A stretch of 47,714 bases of DNA, from NCBI GenBank assembly GCA_020050835.1, contig JAGVKB010000076.1:1-47714 (forward strand). The letters are read 5' to 3'. A model generated the notes under the pieces. The model saw only the letters and a program-made list of their open reading frames with translations. It had not been told where the DNA came from and ran no database searches. The DNA is from Candidatus Obscuribacterales bacterium (GTDB lineage Bacteria > Cyanobacteriota > Vampirovibrionia > Obscuribacterales > Obscuribacteraceae). This document shows positions 2,608 to 23,092 of this stretch, one piece after another. Within the stretch, counting starts at the first letter, position 1, and every line of letters starts with the position of its first letter. A program made the translations under genes and the position numbers.

Positions 2608-4014
2608 TTGCGAAAAAGCCTGCAGAAACGCCCAGTCTACCCATTTTTCTGGCAGACACTTTTAACAATCCTGGCTGGGGTCTCAGCTGGGCTTGTGGCA
2701 CTTTTCATGCTCAGCAAGACTCATGGCGAGGCGCGCTCTCACTCCTTAATCGCCGGTACGGCTGGAAGACAAGCAGTAGCGGGTGTTCCGGGATTTCCTA
2801 GTCTGCCTTGTTTGCCCACTCTCAATGAGCGGATGAATCTCCTTGTCATGGGAGTCGACTCGAATGGTAAGGGCACTCTGCGATATCTGGGAACCAGGTC
2901 CGACTCGATGATGCTGGTGAGCATCGACCCGGCCCGGCGTAGGGTTGGTGTAGTGTCCATTCCAAGAGACAGTCGGGTCGAAATTGAAGGGCACGGAACC
3001 GATAAAATCAACTCGGCGCACGCTTTTGGCGGCCCGGAGCTATCCGTGTCCACCGTGCGCAATACATTTTTAGTTCAAATCGATCACTATGTTGTAATCG
3101 ATACTCAGGGTCTAAAGCGGTTGTTTGAGGCGCTGGGTCCGGTTCAAGTGCTGGTTGAAAAGCCGATGCATTATCGCGATCGAACGGCCGGATTGAATGT
3201 CGATCTCCAGCCGGGATTGCAAACGCTCGACCCGGTGCAGGCAGAGGAATATGTGCGGTATAGACATGACGCTCGGGGTGATATCGGTCGCATGGAGCGC
3301 CAGCAATGGTTTTTGCGGCAAGTCGCACATAAGTTGAAGGAGCCGCAGATCATTCTCAAGCTGCCTGAGCTGATTGCCTTCGCTCGAGACAATGTTGTGA
3401 CCGACATGACTGCTGACGACATGGTCAGAGCGTTGTCGTTCTTGAAGGATTTGGAGCCGACCCAAGTGGCAACCGCTACCATGCCGGGTGTTCCGCAGAT
3501 GATCGCCGGCGGAAGTTACTGGGTGCCTGATATGGAACAGAGCCGAAAGGTTCTGGATCGCTTGATCGGGACTGGATTACTGTCGGCAACCAGTTTCGAT
3601 GCTCCGGAGCAGCAAGCGGCAATCGTCGATGCTAGCACCACAGGTGATACCGCCGTCGTCAAGCCGATGACAGTTTCAATCAGATATCCCAAGGGTTTGG
3701 AGGAAACAGCGCAGAATGTCGCTCAAGTATTGACCGACAACGGTTATGTCGTGCGTTATCGCTGGCAGATTCCTGAAGCAGATTGCCAGCACGAGCAGAT
3801 CAATCAGAACAGCGAGCGTGCCGATGAGATTCAAACTGATACGCTGCGCAAAGCGCTTCCGGACATCAAGGAATGGCCGGTGGTCATTTCGATTGAAAGC
3901 CGTCCAGTGTCTGACTTTACCTTAACCATCTCGCCGTCTACGACAGTGTCGAGCGCCACGCAGGTGGTCTCTTCACCGGTCAATCATCACCTGGATCGCG
4001 CTCTGGCAAATTAA
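2608..4014 (+). CDS. LytR-CpsA-Psr (LCP) family cell-wall glycopolymer ligase
   Basis: This is a 468-residue type II membrane protein. A basic start and one transmembrane segment at about 14-34 place the rest outside the inner membrane. The LCP domain spans about 75-270: NLLVMGVDS, RSDSMML, SIPRDSRV, KINSAHAFGG, then R-Y-R-H-D near 213-217 and the GRMERQQWFL motif, which hold the arginines and aspartates that bind the polyprenyl pyrophosphate. Residues 340-440 look like a LytR_C-type domain. LCP enzymes transfer lipid-linked glycopolymers to peptidoglycan or other wall acceptors. The start is a TTG at 2608; the ATG at 2597 is out of frame. It diverges from the transaldolase gene across about 120 bp. 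Confidence 0.88.
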   Translation: MRKSLQKRPVYPFFWQTLLTILAGVSAGLVALFMLSKTHGEARSHSLIAGTAGRQAVAGVPGFPSLPCLPTLNERMNLLVMGVDSNGKGTLRYLGTRSDSMMLVSIDPARRRVGVVSIPRDSRVEIEGHGTDKINSAHAFGGPELSVSTVRNTFLVQIDHYVVIDTQGLKRLFEALGPVQVLVEKPMHYRDRTAGLNVDLQPGLQTLDPVQAEEYVRYRHDARGDIGRMERQQWFLRQVAHKLKEPQIILKLPELIAFARDNVVTDMTADDMVRALSFLKDLEPTQVATATMPGVPQMIAGGSYWVPDMEQSRKVLDRLIGTGLLSATSFDAPEQQAAIVDASTTGDTAVVKPMTVSIRYPKGLEETAQNVAQVLTDNGYVVRYRWQIPEADCQHEQINQNSERADEIQTDTLRKALPDIKEWPVVISIESRPVSDFTLTISPSTTVSSATQVVSSPVNHHLDRALAN

Positions 4015-4218
4015 CTCGATCAGCCGCCATCGCTAGGATTTCAGCGATCGAAATCGGTAAGAGTCTCAAATGCGAATTTAGAGTTAATCTAAATCGCCTT
4101 GTGATTCAACTTTTTCACTCCTAAAAGTCACCGGCTCTCAAGTTGAAGGTTAGACCAATCCGATCACCGGAATTGTCCGGAGACGGATGGTCCAAAGAGC
4201 AAGCGGGGTGGGTTGAAA

Positions 4219-4653
4219 ATGAGCCAAACTGAGAAGTCGCAAGCAAAAGGTTTGCAGGCTGAAAAGGTAAATGTGGCGGTCGGTACTACCAAGTTGCTGA
4301 GCTTGGACTATAAGACCGCTGCGATGTTGGCTTATCTCCCGCTGTGCGCGGTTAACCTGGTTTTCTCGATCATCTGGATTCGGACAGAGGAGAGCCGATT
4401 CTTGCGTTTTCATGCCCTGCAGAGCCTGGTTCTTACCGGGGTATTCATGGCGGTGGGAGCGGCCGTTTGGGGTCTGACAGTCTTCCTTCTGGCTGTCCCA
4501 TTTCTGGGATTCCTGAGCGCACTTGTCCAGCTCGTCTGGCTCGCTGCTACGGTCGTATACATATGGAAGAGCATCTCCGGCATGATTGATGCATATAACG
4601 GCAGGATGTCCCGGATTGAATACGTCGGCCAGATTGCCGAGCAATTGTTGTAA
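4219..4653 (+). CDS. Small multi-pass membrane protein, DUF4870/Tic20-like
   Basis: This 144-residue protein has an N-terminal polar stretch followed by three hydrophobic segments at roughly 35-58, 70-92 and 95-118. The pattern AAMLAYLPLCAVNLVFSIIW, then the short loop (E)SRFLRFHALQSL, then paired helices is characteristic of DUF4870/Tic20-like small membrane proteins. Their biochemical function is unknown. ATG 4219 is preferred over TTG 4213 because a purine-rich GGGGTGGG tract sits just upstream. It is downstream of the LCP gene on the same strand with a 200-bp gap, so it may have its own promoter. Confidence 0.8.
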   Translation: MSQTEKSQAKGLQAEKVNVAVGTTKLLSLDYKTAAMLAYLPLCAVNLVFSIIWIRTEESRFLRFHALQSLVLTGVFMAVGAAVWGLTVFLLAVPFLGFLSALVQLVWLAATVVYIWKSISGMIDAYNGRMSRIEYVGQIAEQLL

Positions 4654-4690
4654 GGGTATTGTTGAAAGCTTGCGATGCCGTCGATGGAAA

Positions 4691-4727
4691 TCAGCCGAAA
4701 TGCCCTCGAGTCTGGCATCTCGGCTGA
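4691..4727. terminator. Hairpin between convergent genes
   Basis: TCAGCCGAAATGCC (4691-4704) and GGCATCTCGGCTGA (4714-4727) form a 14-bp stem with one mismatch and a nine-base loop. It lies between the convergent membrane-protein and korB genes. There is no long U tract, so its strength as an intrinsic terminator is uncertain. Confidence 0.55.
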
Positions 4728-4769
4728 AAGGAAGTGCGCTCGGCCGCTTGGGAGGAAATCGGCCGTTGG

Positions 4770-5648
4770 CTAGATCATCTCTTCGATCAGTTCGGAGAAC
4801 AATTCCTTTTTCAGACCAAGCGGTTGCTTTACGAGTGGGCCGGCTTTGAAGGCTGGCTCGCCGTCTTCATAAGTGGGTTGATCGCTCTTATAGAGCACTC
4901 CCAGCGGAATCTTTTCGCCCCATTCGAAGGACTTCTGCAGCGACTTATCTGCGTCGGATGGATCCCAGCCTGTGTCTTCCAGTTTGTAAACGCGCTCTTT
5001 GAACCATGGATAGGTATTGATCTTATTGTAAGTCACGCAAGGACTGTACACATCGATCAGCGCGAATCCTTTGTGAGCGATGCCGCCGGCGATCAGATCG
5101 CCTAATTGCTTCTGCTCGCCGGAAAACCCGCGGGCGACGTAGGTGGCACCGGCTGTGATGGCAAGCGCCAGCGGATTGAGCGGCATCTCGCGATTGCCTT
5201 CAGGCGTCGATTTCGTGCGGTGTTCTTTGGTCGTGGTGGGCGAAGCCTGTCCGGTTGTCAGTCCGTAAATCTGATTGTCCATCACGACATAGGTGACGTC
5301 TAGATTACGGCGCATCGCATGAATGAAGTGACCGACACCGATTCCGTATCCGTCTCCATCACCACCGGTGATGACTACTTTGAGATCGGTGTTTGCCAGG
5401 TGCGCGCCGGTGGCAACTGCTACCGAGCGTCCGTGCAAGCTGTGAATTCCGTAGGCGTGAATGAAACCGGGCAGGTTGGACGAGCAGCCGATACCCGAGA
5501 CTACCAGGAGATCCTTCGGTTGAACTCCGCACTTAGCGGCGGCTTGCTGTACCGACTTCAAAACTCCGAAGTCGCCACAACCAGGGCACCAGTCGGGGTC
5601 GACCGGGCCTTTGAAGAGATCGATTGAAAGTTCTACAACAGTTGACAT
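4770..5648 (-). CDS. korB: 2-oxoacid:ferredoxin oxidoreductase, beta subunit
   Basis: This is a 292-residue thiamine-diphosphate-binding subunit. C21-P-G-C24 and C55 (GIGCSS), with C204 (SPCVTYN), supply the four cysteines of the [4Fe-4S] cluster found in the short two-subunit OFOR type. GDGDGYGIG at 96-104 plus the downstream NQIYGLTTGQ form the TPP/Mg2+ motif, and the SPT-TTKEH segment is also typical. The complex oxidatively decarboxylates a 2-oxoacid with CoA, passing electrons to ferredoxin. It follows the alpha subunit by 24 bp in one operon. The substrate, 2-oxoglutarate or pyruvate and others, is inferred from the subunit organisation and not proven. Confidence 0.93.
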   Translation of the reverse strand: MSTVVELSIDLFKGPVDPDWCPGCGDFGVLKSVQQAAAKCGVQPKDLLVVSGIGCSSNLPGFIHAYGIHSLHGRSVAVATGAHLANTDLKVVITGGDGDGYGIGVGHFIHAMRRNLDVTYVVMDNQIYGLTTGQASPTTTKEHRTKSTPEGNREMPLNPLALAITAGATYVARGFSGEQKQLGDLIAGGIAHKGFALIDVYSPCVTYNKINTYPWFKERVYKLEDTGWDPSDADKSLQKSFEWGEKIPLGVLYKSDQPTYEDGEPAFKAGPLVKQPLGLKKELFSELIEEMI

Positions 5649-5672
5649 TGCTTTATTCCTCTTCGTTAAAAC

Positions 5673-7706
5673 CTAAGCCTTCGACGCGGACTGTGCAGCT
5701 TCCTTTTTCGCTGCTGTTTCAGTCTGTTTGAAGGAGTAGGTCGCTCCGGTTTCGATGCCGATAATGATTTCGCCACAACTTTCGCCGCTGGTCTTGTCTA
5801 CAAGCTCAACCTTCCAAACCGGCTCTTTGTAAGTCTTGCTCGTTTCGCGGACAGCCTTGCCCGGACGAAGCTTTTCGGCGTAATGAGTTCTTAGATAGTG
5901 ATAGCTGAATTCGCGTGCTTCCGCCTCCGTCACTTCCAGGCAGGCGGTCTTGCCGGCCAGGATATTCTTGACGTGGGCGGCGACATAAGCCGGTTCGAGC
6001 GGCTCGCCGTCATACTTGGTGACATGACCGTCCATGGCGATGCCGGTTTCCATTCGCACATACTTCGCCATCTGGCTTGTGAAGTTGGCTTCGACCGATA
6101 TCTTCTTCTTGGACTTCGAAAGCGCTTCGGCCACTTCCTTGGCGTGGAACGGCACGATGTATTTCAAGTGAAGCTGATTGGCCTTAATGCCGTCTTTTGC
6201 CAAAAGCTCAATCGCTTCTCTGATCGCTCCGCCGCTCGATCCCCAGCCTACCAGCGTTACTTCGGCATCGGCCGGTCCTTCCAGCTTGGGCGCAGGTAGA
6301 TCTTTGGCCAGCAAGTCCATCTTGCGCATGCGCTTTTCCATCATCTTGCGACGGACGGCGGCGGCGGTGAACATATCTGATATAAGGATCGATTCCTCAT
6401 CGTGCTCGTCGGTAGCCGAAACGAAAAGCGTGTTGGCGGTTCCAGGAATGGTGCGAGGCGAAATGCCTGATTGCGTTAGAGCGAATCGCTTGAATTTGCC
6501 GTTCTCCGGATTCCATTCCTTGACCATCTCGCCGCGATCGATCTTGACGTCATGTTTGACTGAATCAGCATCGATCGTCTCCGGGTGTTCGGACAGCAGG
6601 AGGTCGGACATAATCATGACCGGCAGTTGATACTTTTCAGCCATGTTGAAAGCTTCGACCGTCGACCAGTAAGCATCCACGACATCGCCGGGCGCCACAA
6701 TCATGCGGGGAAACTCACCTTGCGATGCGCCCAGCACCTGGAATAGATCGGCTTGCTCGGTCTTGGTGGGCAATCCGGTGGACGGACCACCACGTTGCAC
6801 CTCGACACAGACAACCGGAACTTCCATGATGCCTGCCATTCCGATTGCTTCCGTCATCAAAGCGAAGCCACCGCCGGCAGTGCCGCACATCGAACGCACT
6901 CCGGCGATTCCTGCGCCGACTGCCATATTGATTACAGCCAGCTCGTCTTCGGCTTGCTTGACGCAGATACCTACTTGGTTGGCATGATTAGCCATCCAGT
7001 GCAGAATGGTCGAAGCGGGGGTCATCGGATAAGCGGAATAGAACTTGCAGCCGGCAGCAGCGGCGGCGATTGCAATCGCTTCATTGCCGGTGACGAACGG
7101 CCGTCTCTGGTGCGTAAACTCCCAGCCTTCGCGAATTGTCTTGCCCTTCGCTTTAGCGTATTCGTAGCCCGCCTTCAGCAAACCGACGTTCAAATCAATC
7201 ACCTTTTGACCCTTATGGTTGAAGGTGTCTGTTAAAACTCCGGCTGCTTCCTTGAAATCAATCTGAGCGAGATACATGACCGCGCCGACTGCAACGGTGT
7301 TTTGCATGATCGGCTGAATCGGTCCGAACTCCTTTACTACGTCGGCGGTAATTTCTGCCATCGGCAACGGGAGGATCTGCACGCCTTTGGCTACCAGCGA
7401 AGGATCGCATTTCAGGCGGTCGGCATTGAAGAGAATTACCCCGCCTTCCTGTACTTCACCGGCATGTCGCTCAAGCGTGTCCTGATTTAAGCCGATCAAG
7501 GCATCGAGACTGTCGCCGTGAGTATAAACTTTTTTCTCTCCGAGCCGCACTCTTAGCCAGATGTGTCCGCCCCGAATGATCGATTGGTAGCTGTTGTATG
7601 CATACACATGCAGACCGAGCCTACCGGCTGTTTTGGCAAGGGTGTCTCCGGATTTGTCAAGACCGTCTCCGGCAGCTCCACCTATTCCAATTGTGACTTC
7701 AAGCAT
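5673..7706 (-). CDS. korA: 2-oxoacid:ferredoxin oxidoreductase, fused gamma-alpha subunit
   Basis: This is a 677-residue subunit. Residues 1-190 are the gamma (CoA/dimer) domain, starting LEVTIGIGGAAGDG. Residues 205-400 are the pyrimidine-binding alpha domain, opening with GNEAIAIAAAAAGCKF and the diagnostic YPMTPAS motif. Residues 490-600 form the transketolase C-terminal domain. A C-terminal tail of about 60 residues is Lys/Glu-rich. The ATG at 7706 is chosen because GGGGGAGGAG lies just upstream; an in-frame TTG at 7727 would put this ribosome-binding site inside the gene. It forms an operon with korB and would supply reduced ferredoxin, perhaps to a ferredoxin-linked NDH-1 such as the one represented by the nearby nuoL and nuoM. 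Confidence 0.93.
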   Translation of the reverse strand: MLEVTIGIGGAAGDGLDKSGDTLAKTAGRLGLHVYAYNSYQSIIRGGHIWLRVRLGEKKVYTHGDSLDALIGLNQDTLERHAGEVQEGGVILFNADRLKCDPSLVAKGVQILPLPMAEITADVVKEFGPIQPIMQNTVAVGAVMYLAQIDFKEAAGVLTDTFNHKGQKVIDLNVGLLKAGYEYAKAKGKTIREGWEFTHQRRPFVTGNEAIAIAAAAAGCKFYSAYPMTPASTILHWMANHANQVGICVKQAEDELAVINMAVGAGIAGVRSMCGTAGGGFALMTEAIGMAGIMEVPVVCVEVQRGGPSTGLPTKTEQADLFQVLGASQGEFPRMIVAPGDVVDAYWSTVEAFNMAEKYQLPVMIMSDLLLSEHPETIDADSVKHDVKIDRGEMVKEWNPENGKFKRFALTQSGISPRTIPGTANTLFVSATDEHDEESILISDMFTAAAVRRKMMEKRMRKMDLLAKDLPAPKLEGPADAEVTLVGWGSSGGAIREAIELLAKDGIKANQLHLKYIVPFHAKEVAEALSKSKKKISVEANFTSQMAKYVRMETGIAMDGHVTKYDGEPLEPAYVAAHVKNILAGKTACLEVTEAEAREFSYHYLRTHYAEKLRPGKAVRETSKTYKEPVWKVELVDKTSGESCGEIIIGIETGATYSFKQTETAAKKEAAQSASKA

Positions 7707-8107
7707 TCTCAGTATCTCCTCCCCCAATTCACGGGGATTTAATCGGACCGATGGAGTCTTTATCCATCATGGTCCTGACCCAGCCGCCCCAGTGCCTACG
7801 GAACTGCTCTTGAATACAATAAGATATCACACGAGCCGGCTTGGACCACCGGCTGGCACGCAGATGTTGCGTTTACCGGCTTCGGGTAAGTATGCCGGTA
7901 GATAGCGCTCTGACGGTCAATCCGTATGGCCAGTCGGCAAGGCCCCGCTGTTCTTGCTGCAGCCCGCTCCGGCAACCGTCCAGCGGCGCCCGGAGGCAAA
8001 ATGGCGCACAGCTACCAAAGCCGCCCTACAAAAGTTCATAGAAATGCGGCGCAAGAAATGTTACTTGACGCTTGTTTACACGAGCGGCCCAGGAGCCGGC
8101 CAGCTGA
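7707..8107. other. 401-bp intergenic region upstream of korA
   Basis: No convincing gene was found: the short frames on both strands lack ribosome-binding sites and recognisable composition. It holds the korA ribosome-binding site and, at 7874-7900, a perfect 7-bp inverted repeat (TACCGGC/GCCGGTA) around a 13-base loop. A second 6-bp inverted repeat (AGCCGG/CCGGCT) lies near 7835-7856. The korAB promoter should be here, but no clear -35/-10 pair was seen. Confidence 0.5.
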
Positions 8108-8359
8108 CTACTCAGCCGGTTGTTCGTGAGATTCGTGGGAGCTGTGCTCTTCGATAGTCAGATCTTTGCCAGACATTGACCAGGTAAAGCCGACGGCTAC
8201 CAATCCAATCAAGGCCAGAACAACGACCAGCTTGAGCAAGAGATCTTGTGGGCTGGACTCCGGAATAACGCCGGCTGGAGTTGCATGACCGTGCTCCTCG
8301 CCTTCATGCCCGTTGCCCTGGTGCTGGTGTTCTGGCTTGTGTCCGTTTTTCTGAGTCAT
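8108..8359 (-). CDS. Small histidine-rich single-pass membrane protein
   Basis: This 83-residue protein has a His/Gly/Glu-rich N-terminus (six His within residues 1-26, with patterns such as HQHQGNGHEG), one hydrophobic segment at about 40-60 (LLLKLVVVLALIGLVAVGF), and a short His/Glu-rich tail (EEHSSHESHE). It starts 15 bp after the nuoL stop on the same strand, so it is probably translated from the same mRNA. His clusters on both sides of a membrane anchor suggest metal binding, but no family is recognised. A role as an accessory factor of the nuoL product is only a guess from position. Confidence 0.65.
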   Translation of the reverse strand: MTQKNGHKPEHQHQGNGHEGEEHGHATPAGVIPESSPQDLLLKLVVVLALIGLVAVGFTWSMSGKDLTIEEHSSHESHEQPAE

Positions 8360-8374
8360 GACCGAAAGGCTCCT

Positions 8375-10201
8375 TTAACCAAGTGGTCTGAGCAGGAAGT
8401 ACAACAATCCGAGCGCAGACACGCTGCCGAAGATTACCAGTGCGTACCACTGCCCCCGGCCATTTTCGGAGTAACGCAACATTTCGCCTGAGCCTACAGC
8501 CACAAAACTGGAGAGGTTGACCATGTTGTCGACAATAGTCATGTCGATCAGATTCCAAGCTGTGCGGAACAAGGGTAGCGCGAACTTTTGCGAGAACCAG
8601 ATATACGCTTCGTCGAAATACCACTTCTTCCATGAGAATTGATAAAGAAGCTTGAGGCTGTTTTGGCACCAGGTGTTCAAACCGAGATTATTGAGATAAA
8701 CCATGTACGCCAGCGCGATGCCACCCAGACCAAAGGCGGTGGAGATTAGCATGACAGTGGGATCTGCCGCCTCGAACTCCGGATGCGGGCCCCAGTGCAA
8801 GAACTGCGTAAAGACATTCGGCAATGGTGTCGGAGTGCCTCCAAAGATCTGGCTCCACATGCCGGGATTCATGCCCAGGTAACCCGATGCGATCGATGGA
8901 ATCACCAGGGCCAGCAGCGGTAAATTCATGACAGAGAGCGTCTCTTTGTGAGGCTTCTCCTTGCCACGGTACTTGCCTTCAAAGGTCAAAAAATATGCTC
9001 TGAACATATAGAAGGCGGTTAGACCGGCAGTAATAACCAGTCCCCAGGCTAATAGCTCGTGACCGGGACCGGCATATCTAAAGGCAGACGAGATGATGTC
9101 GTCTTTCGAGAAGAATCCGCTCATGCCAGGGAATCCGGAGATTGATAAGCAGCCGATCAGAAAACAAAAGGAGGTTATCGGCATATATTCTTTCAAGCCA
9201 CCCATATTACGCAGGTCCTGGTCGGGCGGAATAAGACGATCCATCAACGAAACCTCATTGAGTCTCTTCTTAAGGTCCCGGTCATGCGAGAAACAATGGT
9301 GCAGTCCGTGAATAACAGCTCCGCTGCAGAGGAAGAGCATCGCTTTGAAAAAGGCATGGTTGAAGAGGTGGAAGATGCCGCCGGTGTATGCACCGACGCC
9401 GAGCCCGCAAAACATGTAGCCGAGCTGGGAGACTGTCGACCAGGCCAGCACGCGCTTGATATCGAACTGAGTGAGGGCGATAGTGGCCGCGGCAAAGGCG
9501 GTGATGCATCCCACCCAGGCGACGATCGCCAATCCGGCTGAATCGGTCGTGCCTTGCGGGGTGAGCCAGATTGGATAAGCCCGCGCTATCAGGTACACGC
9601 CGGCCGCAACCATTGTGGCGGCGTGGATGAGAGCAGAGATCGGGGTCGGACCTTCCATCGCATCGGCAAGCCAGACATGCAGCGGTAGCTGGGCAGACTT
9701 TGCCATCGGACCCATCAGCATCCAAACTGAAATGGCGGTGAGCGAGGCGGCAGTCAAGCTGCCGTTGCTGGCTGCCCATTTGATCGCACCGACTAAATCG
9801 TAGCCGGCTTGATCCGAAAACATCAGAACCGGGTGTCCGTTCCAGAAACCATAAGTTGCCGAGAGGAACCAGAGGACTCCGACCAGGAAGCCGAAATCTC
9901 CAATTCTGTTTACAACGAACGCTTTCATACAAGCTTCGGCGGCGGTGTTCTTGTGCCACCAGAAACCGATCAGGAAATAACTGCAGACGCCGACGAGTTC
10001 CCAGAAGAAATAGCTCTCAAAAAGATTGGTCGATACAACCAGTCCCAGCATCGATCCTGTAAACAATGAAAGGTAGGAGTAGAACCTCGAATAACCAGTA
10101 TCTTCACGCATATAACCATGCGTATATACCTGCACTAGCAGGCTGATTGTCGTGACTACAATCAACATAATGGCCGCCAGGTGATCGACCATCACCCCCA
10201 T
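8375..10201 (-). CDS. nuoL: NADH dehydrogenase-like subunit 5 (NuoL/NdhF), main C-terminal part after an in-frame stop
   Basis: This is a 608-residue polytopic antiporter-type subunit of complex I. Signatures include DHLAAIMLIVVTT, YSRFYSYLSLF, FFWELVG with E68 equivalent to the TM5 proton-channel glutamate, AKSAQLPLHVWLADAMEGP, HAATMVAAGVYL, DIKRVLAWSTVSQLGYM and FNHAFFKAMLF. The C-terminus retains the long lateral-helix region ending in a final transmembrane segment. The frame continues upstream without any shift through SFNLS, a TAA at 10217-10219, and then the missing N-terminal 80 residues. ATG 10201 has no ribosome-binding site. It is therefore either re-initiated or read through, or nuoL is damaged or mis-sequenced. 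Confidence 0.9.
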   Translation of the reverse strand: MGVMVDHLAAIMLIVVTTISLLVQVYTHGYMREDTGYSRFYSYLSLFTGSMLGLVVSTNLFESYFFWELVGVCSYFLIGFWWHKNTAAEACMKAFVVNRIGDFGFLVGVLWFLSATYGFWNGHPVLMFSDQAGYDLVGAIKWAASNGSLTAASLTAISVWMLMGPMAKSAQLPLHVWLADAMEGPTPISALIHAATMVAAGVYLIARAYPIWLTPQGTTDSAGLAIVAWVGCITAFAAATIALTQFDIKRVLAWSTVSQLGYMFCGLGVGAYTGGIFHLFNHAFFKAMLFLCSGAVIHGLHHCFSHDRDLKKRLNEVSLMDRLIPPDQDLRNMGGLKEYMPITSFCFLIGCLSISGFPGMSGFFSKDDIISSAFRYAGPGHELLAWGLVITAGLTAFYMFRAYFLTFEGKYRGKEKPHKETLSVMNLPLLALVIPSIASGYLGMNPGMWSQIFGGTPTPLPNVFTQFLHWGPHPEFEAADPTVMLISTAFGLGGIALAYMVYLNNLGLNTWCQNSLKLLYQFSWKKWYFDEAYIWFSQKFALPLFRTAWNLIDMTIVDNMVNLSSFVAVGSGEMLRYSENGRGQWYALVIFGSVSALGLLYFLLRPLG

Positions 10202-10216
10202 CGAAAGGTTGAAGCT

Positions 10217-10459
10217 TTACGACTGAAACCAGTCCCAGTTGAACTGTACAGTCCCGATTGCAGGGTTTTGCCGCAGCCCCTCCAGGATTAACAGAGAGTG
10301 AACGAATCCGTAGAAAACCGCTCCGACCGACAGCAGCATTGACAAGGTCTTGCTGAATCGCGCTCCCAGAATAATCAAGGCGCCTGCGATAAACGGTGCA
10401 GCAACGATCAACGGTGACATTGCGATAATCGCATTCGTCGTTTCGGCGGATAAGTTCAA
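10217..10459 (-). CDS. nuoL: NuoL N-terminal fragment, ended by in-frame TAA
   Basis: This 80-residue piece carries the first two transmembrane helices of NuoL (APFIAGALIILGA and TLSMLLSVGAVFYGFVHSLLI) and the FNWDWFQS segment that normally precedes the third helix. The start is a TTG at 10459 with GGAG upstream (CTGGAGAACCAGCC). The TAA at 10217-10219 is in the same frame as the main NuoL part, 15 bases before its ATG. Read through, the product would be 693 residues plus the recoded position, a normal NdhF/NuoL length. A single-base substitution rather than an indel would explain it. Confidence 0.75.
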   Translation of the reverse strand: MNLSAETTNAIIAMSPLIVAAPFIAGALIILGARFSKTLSMLLSVGAVFYGFVHSLLILEGLRQNPAIGTVQFNWDWFQS

Positions 10460-10706
10460 GGCTGGTTCTCCAGGGCAGCGGCATAGACCGCATGGTAAGT
10501 TCGACGCTTAAACAATATACAAGGACGGCGGTGCTCTGTGATGGGCTAGTTAGTCACGATAAGCGGAAATCCTTATGCCGACAGTTCTAAAAATATTCTT
10601 CGTTTCAATAAAACTTCAATTACCGGTAGCTTCCAGGTCTAAATTGAAATACTAAAGTGGCATTACAATGTGTCTTTCAGGACTTACCGATTTTTGGAGT
10701 TAACCC

Positions 10707-12293
10707 GTGGATCCACAGCATCTCTTGACTATTTTGCTGCTCATCCCATTGGCCGGAATTCTCTTTATCGTCTTTCTGCCGGAGCAGTGGTCGAGGAATA
10801 CATCGATCGTTCTGGCCGGCTTGATGGTTTTAGTCAGCGCTGTTGTCGGTAAAAACATTCACCCTGACAATCTCGAGATGCAGCTGGTTGAGAAGATGAC
10901 TTGGATCAGCTGGCCATTGCCGGTCGAATATCACGTTGGAGTAGATGGATTTAGCTTCTGCCTGGTGATGCTGACCAGTATCGTCACGTTGCTTGCAATC
11001 ATCGCCAGTGAAAGTATTGGAAAGACAAGGTCGAGGCTTTACTACAGCATGGTGATGTTGCTGACCGCTTCAATCACCGGAGTGTTCATCTCCCTAGATC
11101 TAGTGCAGTTTTTCGTGCTCTACGAGTTAGAGCTGATTCCCATGTATTTCTTGATCGCTATCTGGGGGGGACCGAGACGCGATTATGCCGCCATGAAGTT
11201 CCTGATTTACACTTTCTTTGGTGGCATCTTCATGTTGGGCGGACTACTCTATCTTTATTATCAACTCGGGCTCTCCGGTGCTCAGTATCAGACCTTTGAT
11301 ATGGTCAAGCTGTCGACCTTCAGCCCGATCTTGACGCCTGGCGTACAGTTGATCGGCTGTCTGGCCTTCATGATTGCATTCCTGATCAAGCTGCCGTCTT
11401 TCCCGTTCCATACTTGGCTGCCAGACGCTCACGTCGAAGCGCCTACTCCGATTTCAATGATTCTGGCCGGCTTGCTTCTCAAGATGGGCTCTTACGGTCT
11501 GGTCAGAATCTGTATGGGCTTCTTTCCGGATGCGCTTGCAGTCCTGGGTGTACCGCTCATGATTTTGGGCGCTTTCAATATTGTCTGGGCGGCGATCGCC
11601 TGCTTGGTTCAAGATGATATGAAACGAGTGATCGCCTTTTCGAGCGTGAGCCATATGGGCTTTGTCACACTCGGGCTCGGCTCATTGTCGGCGGCCGGTC
11701 TGAACGGGGCAATTTTCCAGATGATCAGCCACGGCTTCATCTCTGCGCTTTTGTTCTTTATGGTTGGAACTGTCTATGATCGCTGCCATACCCGTCAAAT
11801 AGCCGAACTCGGCGGCGGTCTGGCCAAGCAGATGCCGGCTATTTTCTATTTCTGGATGTTGGCTGCTCTGGCTAACTTGGGGCTGCCGGCTTTGTCCGGA
11901 TTCGTGGCCGAAGCGGTCGTCTTTTACGGCACCTTCACGTCGCCGATTGCCGCATCGGTTCACGTAATGCCGGTGCCATTTGCTATTACGCAAGCCGATT
12001 TCGTCCATGGCGCGATCGTGCTGGCGGCTACCGGGGTGATTTTGAGCGCAGGCTATATGCTTTGGCTATTGAAGCGCCTCTTTTACGGTCCGGAGCTGCC
12101 GAAATGGTCCGGGCATTTGAGCGACATGAAGCCTTACGAGATGGTGGTGGCAGCATCCTTTTCGGTCTTCATCATCGGCTTGGGCATTTATCCGCTGGCG
12201 ATCACAAGTCAATACACGCCGCTGGCCGATCGCATGGCTAAGGATACGGCTGCGAAAGTTACCGTCAGTATGCGTCCTCAGCAATTCGAGTAA
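10707..12293 (+). CDS. nuoM: NADH dehydrogenase-like subunit 4 (NuoM/NdhD)
   Basis: This is a 528-residue polytopic proton-pumping subunit of complex I. YE140LELIPMYFLIAIWGG contains the conserved TM5 glutamate. FLIK228LPSFPFHTWLPDAHVEAPT contains the TM7 lysine and the classical TWLPDAHxEAP motif. DDMKRVIAFSSVSHMGFV and SHGFISALLFFMVG complete the antiporter core. Length matches NuoM/NdhD (500-530). The start is GTG 10707 with GGAG eight bases upstream. It is divergent from nuoL across about 250 bp. No other complex I genes lie nearby, an arrangement reminiscent of the scattered ndhF/ndhD genes of cyanobacteria. Whether the partner is a NADH- or ferredoxin-linked NDH-1 cannot be told. Confidence 0.95.
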   Translation: MDPQHLLTILLLIPLAGILFIVFLPEQWSRNTSIVLAGLMVLVSAVVGKNIHPDNLEMQLVEKMTWISWPLPVEYHVGVDGFSFCLVMLTSIVTLLAIIASESIGKTRSRLYYSMVMLLTASITGVFISLDLVQFFVLYELELIPMYFLIAIWGGPRRDYAAMKFLIYTFFGGIFMLGGLLYLYYQLGLSGAQYQTFDMVKLSTFSPILTPGVQLIGCLAFMIAFLIKLPSFPFHTWLPDAHVEAPTPISMILAGLLLKMGSYGLVRICMGFFPDALAVLGVPLMILGAFNIVWAAIACLVQDDMKRVIAFSSVSHMGFVTLGLGSLSAAGLNGAIFQMISHGFISALLFFMVGTVYDRCHTRQIAELGGGLAKQMPAIFYFWMLAALANLGLPALSGFVAEAVVFYGTFTSPIAASVHVMPVPFAITQADFVHGAIVLAATGVILSAGYMLWLLKRLFYGPELPKWSGHLSDMKPYEMVVAASFSVFIIGLGIYPLAITSQYTPLADRMAKDTAAKVTVSMRPQQFE

Positions 12294-20191: not shown

Positions 20192-23092
20192 CTAATAGCC
20201 CGGCCCGAGCAGCTGAAATGCTGCCCAGGTTCTTGGCGATGGATTCTTGGAGATGGAGATCAATTGGGCTTTACGCAAGGACTGAGCTTCGTTGAGCCCT
20301 TTTTCCTTTCCGCGATAGAAGTCGACCAGCTGATTGGTTCTTTGCAAGTCTGGCTCGACCCAGAGGCTCATCATGACATTGCGTACGCCGGCGTAGCTGA
20401 GGCCCCGGCTGAAAACCTTGATGGCAGTCCCCTGGAGGTCTTTTGAGTTGACGGTCGTACCGCTCCAGACAACTAAGTCGGAGGGAAGATTCAGTCCGAA
20501 GAGTCTGTCGGCCGTGACTTTGTTTTTTTCATCATCCTTGTTGGACAAATTCGGCAAAATCGCTTGCTGAGGGTTCAACTCGCTGAGTGCAACTTTGCTG
20601 GAAAAGTGCAGTACCGTCCGTCCTTTTGCCTGTTCTTGCAGATTGTTGATTTCAGCTTCTTTGCCGACCAGATTGGTTACGAGGTCCGGCTGAAACAGGC
20701 TGGCGATCTGGTTGGTTTCATAGTTATTGCCGTTAGCACTCGGTGAGGCGGCGTCCGGAGCCATTACAACGCTCATGTCATGCGAGTACGGCGGCGGGCT
20801 GTCAAGAAAGACTCCCATCGAGGATGACAGAGTCAAGGTGTGGTGCTCGATCAGATACTTGCCGGACCGGTCTACCAGCGCTCCAAACGGCAAGTTGTAC
20901 AGCACTCCGTCCGGCAGCACCACTACTGTTTGATCCGGATTGTCGGGAAGCACTTCACGCACCGCTTCCGGCAGCAATTCTTGATAAAGTTGTTGCAGCG
21001 TTCTGCGCTCCACTTGCGCATCCGGCTTGGCCGATGCTAACAGGGACGAGACTTGCGGTTGCAATTCGGCCCGGCCGACTGCCAGCTTGGTGGCATTGAG
21101 CCTGCCGCTCTGGTCGATCGTAAAGACTATCGTTGAATGTGGTCCGACTAAATAGTCGATCGCTACTGCATGATTGGATTGAATCCCCTTCGCGATGTCC
21201 TGGTAGGTGATCGACACCGGTGCTATCAACCTGGCCAGCGCTCTGTTGGTCGATGCTAGTTGCTTGAAGCGGACCAGCCAATTCTGCCAATCTTTCAGCA
21301 GCTTGTCCGGCGACGTATTGGTTTCGGCCGCATGTAAATGGGCGCGTTGATTGACCAGGTCGTTGAAGATATCGCGATCGTAGGGTTTGACTTCGCCACC
21401 GTGTCTGAGCCAATCATTAATAAAGGATTCCTCCTTCAACTGTTCGGCGGCGATTAGGGCCGGCTCGTATTGATCTTGTGATACCAAAAGCGATACTAGT
21501 TGTTGGCCAAGGTCTTCGCGCGGGGTCGGGAAGCCAAGCCGTTCGGGCGAGGCAAACCAGCCGGCTTGCGGCGAGCGGAAATAGGACAAGGCGCTATTCA
21601 AGGATTCCTTGGCTTGAGGTTGTTGACCGAGCGCCAATTGAAGAGTGGCGAGATTGGTGTAATCGCGCCACAAGGCCGTGTCGTCGTTAATCTTCTCGCT
21701 GACTGTAATTCCTGCTCTCAAATATTTGTCCGCTTCGGGCGGATCCTGAAGATTCAGGCAAACTTCACCGAGAGCCGCATAAACTCGACCTTCCATTAAC
21801 AAGTCTTTCTTCTTCTTCAAGTAAGGGAAGCAAGCCAGCAAATGCGCTTTGGCATTGCGGTTGTCGTTGTTTCGAGATTCAGCCGCGGCTAGATTCTGCA
21901 GCATTACCATCGCGAAATAGTCTTGCTTGGGTTGCACCATCGAAACCGCTTCCAGCGCTTGAGTGATTAGTTGGACTGCTCTTGGATAGTGACCATCGAG
22001 CGCTTCGATGCAGCCGAATGTGTTCAAGACTTGAGCTTGTTCGATCGGCGTTCCCTTGGCTTTCAAAGACTTGAGGGCTATCTCCATTACCGCCTTGGCC
22101 GGAAGCAGGTCGCCGCTGCCGGCGAGCGTATGGGCGTAACCGGCTTGTAGTCTGGCGATTGCCAGTTCATTGGCCGATTTCAAATAGAGGAGCTCTTCAT
22201 AACTCTTGCGCGCATTGGAGTATTCACCGAGATTGTATTGGGTGATCGCCAGCGCAGCCAGGGCTGCTGGCACCAGCGCTTTGTCCTTAGTTTCGCGGGC
22301 CAGCTCCAAGGCTTTGTTTGCTTCTTCCTGAGCGGCAACCAGCCAACCCAGCTCGCGCATCATGCCGCTCAAGGCGACACGTGTTTTGACTGATTCCTCG
22401 ACGTTGCCGGCTTGCTCGTAATAAGAGCAAGCTCCTTGATAGAAGCGAATCGCTTCCTTGATTTTCATCATCTTGACCAAAACCATGCCGGAAATGGTCA
22501 TTACTTTTGCCGCTTCCGGTGCATCGTTCATGCCGAACTGGGTAAACGACTTCAAGGCCTGATCAAGCTGATTGGCTGCCCATACCGGATTGTCCATCAT
22601 GAAGTAAGCTTGTGCTAAAGCCACTCTGGCTTTGCCGAGCGATTTCTTGTCGCCGGATTCCGACAGCATTTCGATTGCGTTCTCGCCGAGCTCCTTGGCC
22701 TTGGTGGCCTGCCCGCGCATCAGATATATTTCGCACATGAGCGTCAGCGCACGGCCTTGCCCGTCTGCATACTTCATTTCAAGCGACATGCCATAGGCTT
22801 CTTGTGTCTTAGACAGCGCCTTGTCGGCTTCATGCCTCTCCATGTACTTCCGTGCATCAGCTTCGAGCTGATGCACCCTGTCAATGGTCTCCGGCGTTTG
22901 CGGAATCTCCGGAGCCGCCGGAATGGGGATTTGGGTTGCCGGTTGATCAGCCGCAAAAGTGGCTATCCTGGCGTTTCCAATTAGAAGCGCCAGCGATAGA
23001 AAAGCGATGCTCAATTTCCGAGGAGATAACCAGATGTGACTCTTCAAAATGGACCTTCCGTAATTTCTGTGGGAATCGGCTTCACCGTTCAT
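20192..23092 (-). CDS. Exported TPR protein with degenerate CHAT domain
   Basis: This is a 966-residue protein. After a basic start, a hydrophobic segment at 26-48 is a signal peptide or anchor. Residues 70-530 are many tetratricopeptide repeats (for example ALAQAYFMMDNPVWAANQLDQ). Residues 640-966 form a CHAT (caspase-HetF-associated) fold: ILPDGVLYNLPFGALVD-like strand-loop, the ADRLFGLNLPSDLVVWSG segment, AGVRNVMMSLW and FYRGKEKGLNEAQSLRKAQ. The catalytic histidine motif (LHFATHG) is replaced by LHFSSKV, with Lys at about 833. The cysteine motif (LSACxT) is replaced by WSGTTV, with Thr at about 879. A protease function is therefore unlikely; a scaffold role is inferred. Confidence 0.88.
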   Translation of the reverse strand: MNGEADSHRNYGRSILKSHIWLSPRKLSIAFLSLALLIGNARIATFAADQPATQIPIPAAPEIPQTPETIDRVHQLEADARKYMERHEADKALSKTQEAYGMSLEMKYADGQGRALTLMCEIYLMRGQATKAKELGENAIEMLSESGDKKSLGKARVALAQAYFMMDNPVWAANQLDQALKSFTQFGMNDAPEAAKVMTISGMVLVKMMKIKEAIRFYQGACSYYEQAGNVEESVKTRVALSGMMRELGWLVAAQEEANKALELARETKDKALVPAALAALAITQYNLGEYSNARKSYEELLYLKSANELAIARLQAGYAHTLAGSGDLLPAKAVMEIALKSLKAKGTPIEQAQVLNTFGCIEALDGHYPRAVQLITQALEAVSMVQPKQDYFAMVMLQNLAAAESRNNDNRNAKAHLLACFPYLKKKKDLLMEGRVYAALGEVCLNLQDPPEADKYLRAGITVSEKINDDTALWRDYTNLATLQLALGQQPQAKESLNSALSYFRSPQAGWFASPERLGFPTPREDLGQQLVSLLVSQDQYEPALIAAEQLKEESFINDWLRHGGEVKPYDRDIFNDLVNQRAHLHAAETNTSPDKLLKDWQNWLVRFKQLASTNRALARLIAPVSITYQDIAKGIQSNHAVAIDYLVGPHSTIVFTIDQSGRLNATKLAVGRAELQPQVSSLLASAKPDAQVERRTLQQLYQELLPEAVREVLPDNPDQTVVVLPDGVLYNLPFGALVDRSGKYLIEHHTLTLSSSMGVFLDSPPPYSHDMSVVMAPDAASPSANGNNYETNQIASLFQPDLVTNLVGKEAEINNLQEQAKGRTVLHFSSKVALSELNPQQAILPNLSNKDDEKNKVTADRLFGLNLPSDLVVWSGTTVNSKDLQGTAIKVFSRGLSYAGVRNVMMSLWVEPDLQRTNQLVDFYRGKEKGLNEAQSLRKAQLISISKNPSPRTWAAFQLLGPGY

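Follow-up and report, generated by a model that had tools for sequence, protein, structure and literature searches.

The nuoL locus of an Obscuribacterales draft genome

The window analyzed here, 47,714 nt in length, is an entire contig of a 7.0 Mb draft genome that is most closely related, among named genomes, to Candidatus Obscuribacterales MAGs (Melainabacteria/Cyanobacteriota). The draft comprises 154 contigs and is ~96% complete, with an estimated contamination of 4.1%. On the minus strand, positions 8375..10459 hold nuoL, the gene for an NdhF/ND5-type antiporter-like subunit of complex I, with one in-frame stop inside it. The frame opens at a TTG at 10459, with a GGAG 8 nt before it, and closes at a TAA at 8377-8375, reading as 80 codons, a stop, and 613 further codons. 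The internal stop, a TAA at codon 81 (10217..10219, minus strand), lies in the sequence AACTGGGACTGGTTTCAGTCG TAA AGCTTCAACCTTTCG ATG GGG GTG, which is translated in a single frame as FNWDWFQS * SFNLSMGVM. A sequence-only reading had proposed that this TAA splits nuoL without a frameshift, and the frame is indeed the same on both sides. The 693 residues assigned there to the joined protein hold as a count of sense codons (80 + 613), but the frame spans 694 positions once the stop is counted.

The upstream piece (10220..10459, minus strand; 80 codons from the TTG) contains predicted membrane helices 1 (residues 11-29) and 2 (residues 41-59). A third helix is predicted at residues 94-112, so that the stop at codon 81 falls in the loop that joins the second helix to the third. 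Downstream, an open frame of 608 amino acids runs from an ATG at 10201 (8375..10201, minus strand) and covers most of Proton_antipo_N, where its match begins at profile position 11, and almost the whole of Proton_antipo_M. By itself, this piece scores 551.6 bits against NCBIfam TIGR01974, for which the cut-off is 407.5. No Shine-Dalgarno-like stretch was found in the 15 nt preceding ATG 10201 (AGCTTCAACCTTTCG), as had been noted from the letters alone, and no Rfam matches were found in the window.

Read through the stop, the protein aligns to chain F of PDB 6HUM, a cyanobacterial NdhF, over residues 18-688. Because relatives carry both pieces as one protein of ~670-710 amino acids and the read-through protein aligns to 6HUM in this way, the two pieces are one gene with one in-frame stop and no frameshift. 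Its product belongs to the NuoL/NdhF/ND5 family, the distal antiporter-like subunit of complex I (PF00662 and PF00361; TIGR01974), by its two domains, the family cut-off and the 6HUM alignment, but the uninterrupted frame of ~600-700 amino acids expected of the family is broken here by the TAA at codon 81, which its relatives lack. The protein also carries a charged insertion of ~16 residues relative to 6HUM, around RLNEVSLMDRLIPPDQ (window ~9211-9258, minus strand; residues ~315-330 of the 608-residue piece), and most relatives' matches break near there.

The stop is found in one of 53 genomes of the order

All 33 aligned relatives have an unbroken, collinear nuoL over both pieces (in one, L051, the start is cut by a contig end), and none of the 33 has a stop at the same column. 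The residue there is Ser, Ala, Asp, Thr, Gln, Gly or Met in relatives, mostly Ser or Ala. In the nearest relative, which is 74-76% identical (76% when the downstream piece is compared), the codon is CAA (Gln) and differs from TAA by one base. The sequence-only reading was to be refuted if the upstream 80 residues were missing from every related genome; they are present in the aligned relatives, and we therefore rejected the idea that the family naturally lacks this N-terminal region.

We also used the read-through protein to search 53 genomes of the order and found a stop inside nuoL in one, the present genome; the other stops encountered lay at the gene's own end, where the match ran past it. 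Thus, as is the case for young nonsense alleles, the orthologues are intact and carry a sense codon at the site, both in the 33 relatives and in the survey of the order, and no other split nuoL was found in either set. A search of the literature returned no report of a nuoL stop in the Obscuribacterales group.

TAA is read as a stop in this genome

An open frame on either side of a single TAA is also what would be seen if this organism read TAA as a sense codon. As a sample for a genome-wide survey of nonsense codons we took two large domain families, ABC_tran and Response_reg, and found no internal stops in 40 and 142 matches, respectively (182 matches; ~20,000 codons of the same genome). At the 47 places in the draft genome that match tRNAs, ARAGORN found none with a TTA, CTA or TCA anticodon. 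Finally, the 32 family-supported genes end in TGA (14/32), TAG (12/32) or TAA (6/32), bearing out the claim that TAA serves other genes as an ordinary stop; nuoL itself is among the six, and its end coincides with the ends in relatives. The genome uses the standard code, and reassignment, refuted as far as the domain survey, the tRNA set and the terminal codons test it, is to our minds highly improbable.

The remaining complex I genes are intact

The nuoM gene (10707..12293, plus strand) is intact and divergent from nuoL, an order conserved in the relatives checked. On other contigs of the same genome, nuoA, B, C, D, H, I, J and K (contig C103) and nuoN (contig C42) are uninterrupted. The remaining complex I subunits tested (nuoA-D, H-K, M and N) are thus all present in the genome and, to judge from these genes, complex I as a whole does not appear to be in the course of being lost.

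No second NuoL was found in the genome. The next match, on contig C62, is a member of a hydrogenase-4-like cluster and does not qualify by sequence as a substitute. Besides nuoL, the antiporter-like genes comprise nuoM, nuoN and those for the HyfB- and HyfF-like subunits on C62; we rejected replacement by a second NuoL accordingly. The C62 cluster (L130, G000:C62:31000-50000, positions 3583-10977, minus strand) is itself a second complex-I-like cluster of the hydrogenase-4 type, with fused ferredoxin/NuoB, NuoC/D, HyfF-, HyfE-, NuoH- and HyfB-like genes.

On the same strand as nuoL, 15 nt past its real stop, lies a gene for an 83-residue, His-rich, one-helix protein (8108..8359, minus strand). 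It has one hydrophobic stretch and no Pfam match, and tblastn places relatives of it immediately behind nuoL at 14 or more Obscuribacterales loci; it may be a small uncharacterised protein with a link to complex I. Also close downstream of nuoL are genes for the beta and alpha subunits of a 2-oxoacid:ferredoxin oxidoreductase (4770-5648 and 5673-7727, minus strand), and elsewhere in the window a 966-residue protein combines TPRs with a CHAT domain (caspase-like protease; 20192-23092, minus strand).

The sequence on both sides of the stop is unrelaxed

Counting substitutions for dN/dS was uninformative for nuoL, since even the comparison with the nearest relative is saturated at synonymous sites, and we therefore counted changes at columns that are invariant in relatives. 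None is altered here, either upstream (0/6) or downstream (0/215) of the stop; the same test on the nearest relative found 1 altered column upstream and 11 downstream. If the gene has been decaying freely, 0/221 altered columns limits amino-acid change since the stop arose to at most ~1.3% per codon, and any loss of nuoL must therefore be very recent. Judged by these columns, the stop either arose very recently, does not exist in the organism, or leaves function in place, and the unrelaxed sequence is equally compatible with each.

A possible recent nonsense allele and its alternatives

We give about even chances to a recent single-base nonsense allele, present in one Obscuribacterales lineage or strain, in a nuoL that is otherwise intact. 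The simplest single-base substitution would turn CAA into TAA, exchanging Gln for a stop. Translation from TTG 10459 should then halt after 80 residues, and the 613 remaining codons would be left with no usable start. Cells with the TAA allele would be expected to lack most of the NuoL pumping arm, so that the enzyme would be impaired with its other subunits present. That the organism truly carries this TAA, and that NuoL is lost through it, we infer. Several points count against such a null allele: losing a core subunit of respiration should come at a cost, the base might be a consensus error, and the unrelaxed sequence suits an artefact or a retained function equally well.

A consensus or strain-mixture error is a close rival to a real nonsense allele. 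It is possible, although we think it less probable, that the organism's nuoL is whole and that the assembler took up a base-call or low-coverage error, or the allele of a minority strain. A fragmented draft with some contamination, one changed base in a gene that is otherwise sound at all 221 invariant columns, and a TAA common to no relative would all fit such an error, and interrupted genes in deposited genomes have often turned out to be sequencing errors, as one such genome, that of M. smegmatis, illustrates, in which they account for a significant proportion of the interrupted genes (PMC1852416). The survey of ~20,000 ABC-transporter and response-regulator codons points the other way, its lack of any internal stop indicating that nonsense errors are uncommon in this assembly; the upper 95% bound on their rate is ~1.5e-4 per codon, although at that bound the chance of one nonsense error in nuoL would still be up to ~10%. 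The case resembles the interrupted coding sequences and young nonsense pseudogenes described previously (PMC1852416, PMC2277376) in its single-base break, intact halves and restriction to one genome, and nothing in nuoL is distinctive by comparison.

The alternative that NuoL is functional despite the stop, through low-level readthrough of TAA or through termination and reinitiation at ATG 10201, as a full-length or two-piece protein, strikes us as unlikely. The unrelaxed sequence would be expected of a working gene, the break falls in a loop such that each piece might in principle retain its topology, and the ATG lies 15 nt past the stop; it is set against this that the ATG has no ribosome-binding site, that no suppressor tRNA was found, and that TAA terminates elsewhere and at nuoL's own end. 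In-frame stops under purifying selection in bacteria have been taken as possible cases of readthrough (PMC7918605), and the nuoL stop resembles them in being internal and flanked by conserved sequence. In that survey, however, TGA rather than TAA is named as the leaky codon and many cases were deemed tolerated for short times, whereas the nuoL codon is TAA and the break, common to no relative, occurs in one genome only, too few to show persistence under selection. That the NuoL of this lineage is a two-piece protein or a product of low-level readthrough, its interruption in the helix 2-3 loop being tolerated or even regulatory, is more doubtful still, and nothing positive supports readthrough or reinitiation yielding a working split NuoL.

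Among the options raised from the sequence alone, a sequencing or population variant and a recent null mutation are thus favored, while a functional split NuoL and stop-codon readthrough gained no positive support. The weights that we give the four readings, reassignment included, are matters of judgement and do not come from a computation. We conclude that this is an ordinary young broken copy of nuoL or a sequencing slip, with no new genetic mechanism.

For this MAG, an annotation would present nuoL as two genes or as a pseudogene, and a single unverified base is no ground for inferring that complex I has ceased to function. Should the base prove both real and common, the lineage would have lost a proton-pumping subunit very recently, from a complex I that is otherwise conserved.
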